Source: Candidatus Hydrogenisulfobacillus filiaventi
Lineage (GTDB): Bacteria; Bacillota; Sulfobacillia; Sulfobacillales; R501
Direction of reading: 5' to 3'
Length of the DNA stretch: 64,000 nt
Assembly (NCBI GenBank): GCA_902809825.1
Contig: LR778114.1
Location: forward strand, 1,984,001 to 2,048,000
Part shown: positions 4,185 to 7,073 of the stretch, piece by piece
Position numbering within the stretch: the first letter of the stretch is position 1
How the letters are laid out: every line of letters begins with the position of its first letter
Position numbers and translations under genes: made by a program
The notes under the pieces: generated by a model
Told to the model about the DNA's origin: nothing
The model's input: only the letters and a program-made list of their open reading frames with translations
Database searches by the model: none

Positions 4185-5039
4185 ATGCGCACCGTCGAGT
4201 TCGCCCCTGGCATCACCCTGCCCGCTATCGCCCAGGGTACCTGGCACCTAGGCGAGGACCCCACCCGCCGCCGGGAGGAGGTGGCGGCCCTGCGGGCCGG
4301 CATCGACCTGGGACTGACCGTCATCGACACGGCAGAGATGTACGCCGACGGTGAGGCGGAACGGGTGGTGGCCGAGGCCATCGCCGGCCGCCGGGAGGAG
4401 GTGTTCCTGGTCAGCAAGGTCTGGCCCACTCATGCCCGCCGCGACCTGGTAATGCGGGCCGCAGAAGGTTCGCTGGCACGGCTGGGCACCGACCATCTCG
4501 ACCTCTACCTGCTGCACTGGCCCACCCTGCGGGTCCCGCTGGAGGAAACCCTCGACGCGCTGGTCACCCTGGTCCGGCAGGGGAAGACCCGCGCCATCGG
4601 CGTCTCCAACTTCCCCGCCGCCTGGTTCCGCCGCGCCCAGACCCTGCTGCCGCTGGACGTGCCGCTGCGGGTGGACCAAGTCCCGTATTCCCCGGCCGAC
4701 CGCCGCGCCGAGCGCGACCCCCTCCCGGCCGTGCGGGAGGCCGGCGCCCTCCTGATGGGCTGGGGCCCCCTCAAGTTCGTCAACCAGGCCGCCAGCCCCG
4801 CGGCGCGGGCGGTGCTGGAGACGGTGGCCGTCCGTCACGGGCGCAGCTGGCAGCAGGTGGTCCTCAACTGGGTCACCACCCATCCCGGGGTGCAGGCCAT
4901 CGCCAAAGCCGCCAATCCGGCCCATACCCGCGCCAACGCGGCGGCCACCGACTTCGAGCTGACGCCCGGAGACTTGGCGGAGATTGAGGCTGCCTTTCCC
5001 CTGCCGGAGCACGGGCTGGAGCTGGAGACCATGGACTAG
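4185..5039 (+). CDS. Aldo/keto reductase
   Basis: This 284-residue cytosolic oxidoreductase carries the full aldo/keto reductase tetrad: D48, Y53 (in DTAEMY), K78 (VSKVW) and H111 (LLHWP). The usual GVSNF and late NADPH-binding segment (AIAKAANPAHTRAN) are also present. The family reduces aldehydes and ketones with NADPH; the substrate cannot be told. An AGAGGAGG ribosome site sits 8 bp before the ATG. The gene follows the DUF255 gene closely on the same strand. Its TAG stop overlaps the stop of the convergent yqeK-rsfS gene in a shared CTAG (5036-5039). Confidence 0.93.
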   Translation: MRTVEFAPGITLPAIAQGTWHLGEDPTRRREEVAALRAGIDLGLTVIDTAEMYADGEAERVVAEAIAGRREEVFLVSKVWPTHARRDLVMRAAEGSLARLGTDHLDLYLLHWPTLRVPLEETLDALVTLVRQGKTRAIGVSNFPAAWFRRAQTLLPLDVPLRVDQVPYSPADRRAERDPLPAVREAGALLMGWGPLKFVNQAASPAARAVLETVAVRHGRSWQQVVLNWVTTHPGVQAIAKAANPAHTRANAAATDFELTPGDLAEIEAAFPLPEHGLELETMD

Positions 5040-6028
5040 TTCCGGGTCTCCGGCTCCTCCGCCACCTCCAGGCGGGGGGCATCGCCCCACAGCCGCTCGA
5101 GGTCGTAATAGCGCCGCTCCGCCTCGGTGAAGATGTGCACCACCACCGACCCGTAGTCGAGCAGGACCCACTCCGCCCGGCCCTGCCCGCTGCGGGCCAG
5201 TTTGTGCGCCCCCGCCGCGTCCAGCGCCTCCTCGATGTGGTCGGCAAGGGCCGCCACCTGCAAGGCGGTGCGGCCGGAGACGATGACGAAGAAATCGGCC
5301 ACCAGCGTCACCGGCCGCATGTCCAGGATACGGACATCCTCCCCTTTGTGGCGCAGAGCGGTCGCGGCCGCCAGCTGCGCCCATTCCTCGGCGGCGTCCC
5401 CCGCCGGCCTCACTGCCCGTTGCGTCCGCTCGATGGTCTCCCGTCCCCCTTCTGCTTCCCCCGCCGCCGCCAGCGCCGCCAGGGTGCGGGGATGCAGGCG
5501 GACGCCCCGCCGCCGGTAGAAGGCGGCCGACGCCTCCAGCACCGCCCGGTAGCCCTGGCCCAGGTCGTGCAGGGCCAACCGCTCCAGCGCCCCGCGGCCG
5601 GAATAGCGGCGGCCCGGCTCCACCGCATCCGCCACGTACAGCGCCTGTGCCAATAACCCTACGCCAGGGGCGGCGGTGGTATGAAACCGCACCGCCTCCT
5701 GGACCGCCGGGCCCCCCAGCCCCCATTCCTGCAGCCAGGCCGCCGCCACCGGCCCGTGCAGCAGGACGGGAGCCTCCGTTTCCCAGGCGTCCGGCTGCCA
5801 GCCCAGGCGGGCGGCTTCGGCCAGCAGCGCCGCCGGTGCCCACTCCCGCGCCAGGTCATGGGCCCAGGCGGCGAGGGCTGCCGCTTCCGGATCCTGCCCG
5901 CTGCGCGCCGCCCAGGCAGCCATCCAGGCCGCCACCCGGGCCACGTGGGCCCGCCGGCCGGCACTCAGCCGCTCCAGGGCCCGGGCCACCGGCGGCCACT
6001 TCCCGGGCTCCGGCACCGTTTCCGCCAT
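5036..6028 (-). CDS. Fused YqeK-type HD hydrolase and ribosome silencing factor RsfS
   Basis: One uninterrupted 330-residue frame carries two proteins that are normally separate neighbours. Residues 1-190 are a YqeK-like HD domain with H28, H57-D58, H91, H116 and D134 as metal ligands; YqeK proteins cleave Ap4A symmetrically. Residues 215-330 are a complete RsfS/DUF143 domain ending in the hallmark DYGSVVVHIF and YYDLERLWGDA, which binds L14 on the large ribosomal subunit and blocks joining of subunits. The linker (190-215) is charged and Ala-rich. The ATG at 6028 follows a GGGGGG ribosome site. In most Bacillota the order is nadD-yqeK-rsfS as separate genes. Here they are fused and are separated from nadD by an RRM gene and a terminator. 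No stop or slippery break is visible at the junction. Confidence 0.9.
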   Translation of the reverse strand: MAETVPEPGKWPPVARALERLSAGRRAHVARVAAWMAAWAARSGQDPEAAALAAWAHDLAREWAPAALLAEAARLGWQPDAWETEAPVLLHGPVAAAWLQEWGLGGPAVQEAVRFHTTAAPGVGLLAQALYVADAVEPGRRYSGRGALERLALHDLGQGYRAVLEASAAFYRRRGVRLHPRTLAALAAAGEAEGGRETIERTQRAVRPAGDAAEEWAQLAAATALRHKGEDVRILDMRPVTLVADFFVIVSGRTALQVAALADHIEEALDAAGAHKLARSGQGRAEWVLLDYGSVVVHIFTEAERRYYDLERLWGDAPRLEVAEEPETRN

Positions 6029-6066
6029 GGCACCCCCCGTTATTGTACCTTCCCGTCCGTTCCACC

Positions 6067-6091
6067 AAAAAAAGCCCCGGAGGGCTTTTTT
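6067..6091 (-). terminator. Intrinsic terminator after the RRM gene
   Basis: A GCCC/GGGC stem (6074-6077 with 6082-6085) is extended by A and T runs on both sides (A7 at 6067-6073, T6 at 6086-6091). On the minus strand it ends in seven Ts. It lies between the RRM stop and the yqeK-rsfS start, so these two genes should have separate transcripts. Confidence 0.85.
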
Positions 6092-6112
6092 GGCGGCCGG
6101 GAGCAGCACTCC

Positions 6113-6370
6113 CTAGTACCGGCTCTGACGGGGACGCGCCTCGTTCACAATAATGTCGCGACCGCCCAGCTGGGTGCCGTTCAGGGCCTCCACCGCCCGG
6201 TCCGCGTCCTCCTCCTCCACCTCCACAAATCCGAAACCCCGCGAGCGGCCGGTCTCCCGGTCGGTGATGATGCGGGCGCTAACAACGTGCGCGTGCTGCG
6301 AGAAGGCTGCCACCAGCTGGTCCTCGGTCGTCGACCACGGCAGATTGCCCACGTAAAGGGTGCGCGTCAT
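6113..6370 (-). CDS. Small RRM-domain RNA-binding protein
   Basis: The 85-residue protein is a single RNA recognition motif. RNP2 is LYVGNLPW (residues 5-12) and RNP1 is RGFGFVEV (about 44-51), followed by ALNGTQLGGR, exactly the layout of bacterial glycine-poor RRM proteins. The ATG at 6370 is the only start that gives an RRM N-terminus (MTRTLYVG). It probably binds single-stranded RNA, and cold or RNA-chaperone roles have been proposed for relatives. It is inserted between nadD and yqeK-rsfS, which are normally adjacent, and is followed by its own terminator. A 31-bp gap separates it from nadD. Confidence 0.95.
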   Translation of the reverse strand: MTRTLYVGNLPWSTTEDQLVAAFSQHAHVVSARIITDRETGRSRGFGFVEVEEEDADRAVEALNGTQLGGRDIIVNEARPRQSRY

Positions 6371-6401: not shown

Positions 6402-7073
6402 TCATCGGCGGCGGAGGTCGGGTGGCGGGGTCGCCCGCCCCTCCCCGTCGTGCGAATCCGAAGCGTAGAGCCTGTTCTTGTAGATATAGTTTTCCACCGC
6501 CTCGGGCAGCAGGTACCGGATGGATAGCCCTGCCCGCAGGCGTTCCCGGATCTGGCTGGATGAGATCGCCAAGGCCGGTACTTCCAGAGGGTGAATACGC
6601 GCCCTATGCGCGGGACCGAGGCGGGACTCCATCGCCTTGAGTCGGGAGAGGGAGTACCCGGGGCGGCTGGCGGCAATCAGATGGGCGTACTCGAAAATGT
6701 CCTCTGGCGCATGCCAGGATGCGATCTCTAGAATAGCATCCGCGCCGCTGATAAAGTACCAGTCAACGTCCGGTCCCAGGCGGTGAAAATGAGCCAGCGT
6801 GTCGCTTGTATACGACGGCCCGGCCCGGTCGATCTCCACCCGGGAGAGATCGAAGTGCGGATTCGGCGTGATGGCCAGGAAGGTCATCAGATACCGATCC
6901 TCGGCCGGGGCCACGAAAGCCGCCGACTTATGAGGCGGCATCCCCGAGGGGATGAAGATGACCTGCTCCAGTCCGAAGGCATCCCGGGCCGCTTCCGCGG
7001 CCACCAGGTGCCCGTAATGGATGGGGTTGAAGGTCCCGCCCATAAGGCCGATGGCCCGACGCTTTCCGCTCAT
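6402..7073 (-). CDS. nadD: Nicotinate-nucleotide adenylyltransferase
   Basis: The 223-residue protein transfers AMP from ATP to nicotinate mononucleotide, the penultimate step of NAD synthesis. The nucleotidyltransferase loop GGTFNPIHYGHL sits at residues 12-23 and the second ATP motif ISSSQIR near residue 175; SGADAILEIASW is typical of NadD. The C-terminus has a 15-residue charged extension. It lies downstream of obgE, separated by a 66-bp AT-richer gap, in the usual Bacillota context obg-nadD-yqeK-rsfS, here interrupted by an RRM gene. Confidence 0.96.
   Translation of the reverse strand: MSGKRRAIGLMGGTFNPIHYGHLVAAEAARDAFGLEQVIFIPSGMPPHKSAAFVAPAEDRYLMTFLAITPNPHFDLSRVEIDRAGPSYTSDTLAHFHRLGPDVDWYFISGADAILEIASWHAPEDIFEYAHLIAASRPGYSLSRLKAMESRLGPAHRARIHPLEVPALAISSSQIRERLRAGLSIRYLLPEAVENYIYKNRLYASDSHDGEGRATPPPDLRRR

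Follow-up and report, generated by a model that had tools for sequence, protein, structure and literature searches.

YqeK (COG1713, TIGR00488) is a symmetric Ap4A hydrolase that also cleaves NaAD analogues and 8-oxo-GTP, and in most mycoplasmas it is fused to NadD, its neighbour in the operon (PRK07152; PMC9426524). RsfS, also called YbeB or Iojap (TIGR00090), is an anti-association factor of the 50S subunit that contacts uL14; in S. aureus the loss of Y98 removes about 80% of this activity, while E70A costs only about 20%. A third system that bears on the present locus concerns translation initiation: infC (AUU) and Streptomyces sigR (GTC) combine a strong Shine-Dalgarno sequence with a non-canonical start codon and are the precedents for repression of such starts by IF3 (PMC5472188, PMC13009471). 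No description of a YqeK-RsfS fusion was found in the literature, nor anything relevant on non-AUG rsfS starts.

The window analysed here is the whole 64,000-nucleotide stretch from 'Candidatus Hydrogenisulfobacillus filiaventi' R50, a heat- and acid-loving organism. It contains a yqeK-rsfS fused gene, which the original prediction had correctly located at 5036-6028 and which lies on the minus strand, a detail not given there. The features of the locus are as follows.

5036..6028, minus strand: yqeK-rsfS fused gene, 330 aa; ATG at 6028-6026, TAG at 5038-5036
6031..6038, minus strand: Shine-Dalgarno-like GGGGGGTG ahead of the fused gene, with a duplex energy of -12.6 kcal/mol
5480..5971, minus strand: YqeK HD-type phosphohydrolase domain, residues 20-183 (TIGR00488; PDB matches 3ccg, 2o08, 8wmy)
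5393..5470, minus strand: linker spanning residues 187-212; codon usage fits the fused frame; pLDDT <50 at 197-209
5432..5451, minus strand: AAGGGGGACGGGAGACC-ATC, which may serve as an internal start (AUC, residue 199); duplex -10.1 kcal/mol
5411..5413, minus strand: GTG codon 206, the linker's sole canonical start, preceded by a weak Shine-Dalgarno (-3.2 kcal/mol)
5087..5377, minus strand: RsfS domain, residues 218-314 (TIGR00090); W287, D291 and Y308 at uL14-contact positions
6062..6096, minus strand: terminator-like hairpin with a U-run in the gap between the RRM gene and the fused gene (fold of 6029-6113)
6113..6370, minus strand: gene for an RRM RNA-binding protein, located between nadD and yqeK order-wide
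6402..7073, minus strand: nadD (NaMN adenylyltransferase; NF000840, 252 bits)

Both domains are complete, as had been proposed, and each scores above its curated profile cut-off (TIGR00488, 85.8 bits over residues 20-183 against 70.15; TIGR00090, 100.5 bits over residues 218-314 against 56.9). The YqeK part retains all HD metal ligands: H28, H57, D58, H91, H116 and D134, listed in the original prediction, occur at exactly these positions and align with His29, His58, Asp59, His91, His117 and Asp135 in the YqeK-Mg-ADP structure of S. pyogenes YqeK. In sequence the domain also matches the solved structures 3ccg, 2o08 and 8wmy. It differs from the S. pyogenes enzyme at Lys62, which is Arg61 in the window and Arg as well in L005, the locus of a second fusion described below, and it differs from known YqeK proteins in bearing a C-terminal RsfS. 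By homology, the domain would be a phosphohydrolase acting on Ap4A and related dinucleotides; the proposed role in Ap4A turnover is one of several possible ones, since the activity of YqeK is not confined to Ap4A (PMC9426524).

In the RsfS part, an alignment to S. aureus 6sj6 pairs Y308 with Y98, W287 with W77 and D291 with D81, so that three of the four uL14-contact residues considered (E70, W77, D81, Y98) are kept and E70 is replaced by Ser280. By homology, this domain is predicted to bind uL14 on the 50S subunit and to block subunit joining. Apart from Ser280, it departs from RsfS/YbeB/Iojap in its N-terminal YqeK, and from the RsfS of relatives in lacking its own start codon at the position where theirs lies. 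RsfS homologues can carry extra N-terminal sequence on the ribosome, as in human MALSU1 (5ool), where some 65 residues precede the RsfS-domain match.

The claim that the two domains share one open frame was borne out: residues 187-217 contain no stop, and a ribosome making YqeK must therefore continue into RsfS. Since no stop codon closes the YqeK part, a separate YqeK would need proteolysis or frameshifting. Profile searches of the complete genome found neither a second rsfS nor a second yqeK above the curated cut-off, and an extra unfused copy elsewhere in the genome is thereby rejected. At a GC content of 70.7% an open linker is by itself unremarkable; scored against the codon usage of the genes of the 64-kb window, however, linker residues 187-212 give +1.1 nats in the fused frame and -10.7 and -11.1 in the shifted frames, and residues 190-206 give +1.5 nats compared with -4.9 and -11.4. 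The linker codes in the fused frame, and these statistics favour fusion over chance or a frameshift. The locus is a true gene fusion in that it is a single frame, free of stops and coding throughout. An AlphaFold model built on a 44-row alignment (mean pLDDT 88.8, pTM 0.67) consists of two domains predicted with confidence and a linker that is disordered at 197-209 (pLDDT <50), and indicates no inter-domain contact.

The gene order obg-nadD-rrm-yqeK-rsfS is found in every Sulfobacillales locus that is readable far enough, and relatives keep yqeK and rsfS as separate, adjoining genes, in agreement with the original prediction. The mycoplasma NadD-YqeK protein is alike in joining YqeK to an operon neighbour, but the partner in the window is the other neighbour, on the opposite side. 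The RRM protein is 75-85% identical across the order, a conservation exceeding that of its neighbours, and its gene also lies between nadD and yqeK in one genome each of Limnochordaceae and Clostridiales (L036, L051). The hairpin at 6062-6096, which was missed by the terminator rule of the scan and seen by folding, is strong, and the fused gene may thus need its own promoter. The sigma-70 scan returned no minus-strand promoter ahead of the fused gene; the sequence TACAAT is located between the hairpin and the ATG. At the other end, a convergent aldo/keto reductase gene (4185-5039, plus strand) has a stop that shares the palindrome CTAG (5036-5039) with the stop of the fused gene.

Matches spanning both domains were surveyed in 42 genomes of the order, 154 of the class, 398 of the phylum and 201 of the Chloroflexota, in samples that overlap. 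These surveys are E-value-limited, so that very divergent fusions could escape, although a fusion is expected near the top of the match lists. The search for the same fusion in relatives, recommended by the original prediction, yielded one further case, a Sulfobacillus MAG (G006; L005/L035), and several hundred genomes otherwise without it among the matches listed; the only stop-free spanning matches listed are those of G006 and the window genome. All other spanning matches listed contain stops, and a widespread fusion is rejected. In many other genomes yqeK and rsfS stand in the same frame with at least one stop between them, and in several relatives a single stop parts them. Among the matches listed for the 201 Chloroflexota genomes there is no stop-free fusion; in most of that sample RsfS was matched alone, and in one genome (G536) yqeK and rsfS lie on separate contigs. 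A four-gene tree pairs L005 with S. thermotolerans (L019), its unfused sister species, with a support of 0.998 and far from the window, which implies that the fusion arose at least two times independently within this one order, apparently by stop loss in both cases. Other members of the genus of L005 are without it, and the family of the window is represented by one genome, and no conservation of the fusion as such is seen.

Bacteria very rarely use ACG, AUU or AUC as start codons. In the rsfS genes of about two thirds of Sulfobacillales, a strong Shine-Dalgarno sequence is followed by ACG, AUU, AUC or CUG at the expected start; most members of the order have no ATG, GTG or TTG where the Shine-Dalgarno points, and seven loci contain no canonical start whatever in the stretch from the last in-frame stop to the RsfS domain. 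A hand count of 41 loci of the order, with codons numbered back from the conserved W, gave ACG at -6 in 18, ATT or ATC at -7 in seven (one of them the fused L005), ATG at -8 beside ATT in two more, CTG at -5 or -6 in three, ATG at -6 in six and GTG at -8 in four; the window has none of these. The ACG, ATT or ATC loci are L006-L009, L011, L012, L014, L015, L017, L019, L021-L026, L029, L030, L125-L128, L130 and L132. The ACG occupies the column in which six sister genomes have ATG, at a spacing of 5-9 nt from a Shine-Dalgarno of about -8 to -12 kcal/mol. Within family f3 outside genus g6, column -6 is ACG in 18/25, ATG in 6/25 and ATC in 1/25, the codons flanking the ACG are variable, and ACG makes up about a third (64/177) of the Thr codons of the same genes. 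As a control, a canonical start with a Shine-Dalgarno was present at the same loci in 30/30 rrm and 37/40 yqeK genes; nadD was less clear (10/25 by the same rule), its canonical codon being always present. Elsewhere in the class, rsfS begins with TTG in 24/41 and with CTG in some, and among 40 other Bacillota sampled the start is TTG in 19, ATG in 13 and GTG in six. CTG is the apparent rsfS start elsewhere in class and phylum (L104, L107-L109, L120, L149, L165). Overall, weak rsfS starts look general, and extreme in Sulfobacillales.

How the fusion came about, and whether it means anything for function, can be weighed against these data. A sequencing artefact would require a homopolymer indel joining a yqeK whose true end is the TGA within GTGA (5413-5410) to an rsfS that begins at GTG206. 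The TGA, in the +1 frame, does overlap GTG206, the linker holds two G5 runs and the assembly was built from Nanopore reads, but these were polished with Illumina reads via Pilon (PMC10080006), residues 190-206 score +1.5 against -4.9 nats and GTG206 is without a good Shine-Dalgarno; the codon likelihood speaks against a frameshift or an error in sequencing, and we consider an artefact extremely improbable. The original prediction had gone further and read the fusion as a Rosetta-stone link between Ap4A and subunit joining. Such coupling, in which selection favoured the fusion because RsfS action on the 50S subunit is controlled by Ap4A or related nucleotides that YqeK binds or cleaves, would suit two genes that adjoin throughout the order and were fused twice, and that both concern stress and starvation states (PMC7705103, PMC9503621). 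The link is not upheld, however: among the matches listed, the fusion is stop-free in only two of several hundred genomes surveyed, as two independent events, and adjacency eases accidental fusion. YqeK is joined to NadD in mycoplasmas (PMC9426524), which makes the link weak, and the RsfS-only Chloroflexota matches, the split genes of G536, the disordered linker and the model devoid of inter-domain contact all speak against coupling, which we judge improbable. As yqeK and rsfS often occupy one frame with a single stop between them, stop loss can fuse the neighbours without any functional pull, and this is the simplest reading. The fusion is best seen as a rare accident of gene order, and it does not prove that the two proteins share a task.

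It remains to be considered what the gene makes. A single 330-residue protein with two independently folding domains and a flexible linker of about 25 residues is the likely product, presumably made whole and active in both domains. Within the conserved cluster, the window lineage would have lost both the yqeK stop and the separate initiation site of rsfS, and RsfS would then be made with YqeK from a strong AUG, whereas most relatives would make a separate RsfS from a weak non-AUG start. It is important to bear in mind that the relatives' stand-alone rsfS genes are mostly non-AUG and that internal starts are easily missed, so a stop-free frame is not proof of a single product, and the codon bias of the linker, near the weakest of the whole gene, counts against this reading. 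The fused gene could also yield a separate RsfS through internal initiation at ATC199, ACG202 or GTG206: the missing internal ATG is no barrier in an order that uses non-AUG starts, and the Shine-Dalgarno-like AAGGGGGACGGGAG ahead of ATC199 could drive it. The fused L005 keeps GAGGAGGAATGCGTT-ATC; its unfused sister L019, which has no canonical rsfS start, shares this AUC and has a near-identical Shine-Dalgarno, and for this reason L005 probably still makes a separate RsfS. In the window, on the other hand, the relatives' start column (-6/-7 before W216) reads GGG/GCG with no Shine-Dalgarno just upstream, ATC199 lies about 10 codons upstream of that column and its Shine-Dalgarno score is matched by chance at about 6% of such codons in genes of the window. 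The GTG206 site is weak, and GTG206 is rejected as a relic of a normal start. Dual output from the window gene therefore seems unlikely, if less so than coupling or an artefact. Having lost the start column that L005 kept, the window gene is, of the two fusions, the one more likely to be made solely as a single protein, and the chief consequence of the fusion would be both regulatory and stoichiometric, with RsfS made 1:1 with YqeK from the strong AUG site.

The infC genes of the same genomes carry ATC, ATT or ATA at the conserved site in nearly all cases (L053-L082, L134-L141), and that of the window genome (L065) starts at ATA. Like infC and sigR, Sulfobacillales rsfS pairs a strong Shine-Dalgarno with a non-canonical start; it differs from them in that it would extend the set of targets, and in its use of ACG, a much rarer codon. 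The similar starts of infC and rsfS in the same genomes suggest, by analogy, that RsfS synthesis is limited by IF3 in Sulfobacillales. Our tentative model, which we hold as possible and short of probable, is that RsfS, the 50S anti-association factor, is started at ACG, AUU or AUC and kept low by IF3, itself the anti-association factor of the 30S subunit and encoded by a gene with a start of the same kind, so that the two are balanced, and that the window lineage escaped this control through the fusion to yqeK.

YqeK-RsfS is a rare domain architecture, useful for testing how far tethering is tolerated, and weak evidence for linked function; the start-codon result outweighs the fusion itself in importance. 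Gene callers restricted to ATG, GTG and TTG would misplace or miss such rsfS starts. If the model holds, a conserved non-AUG rsfS start, ACG among the codons, would join the very short list of start-codon-gated bacterial genes, and RsfS would be tied to IF3.
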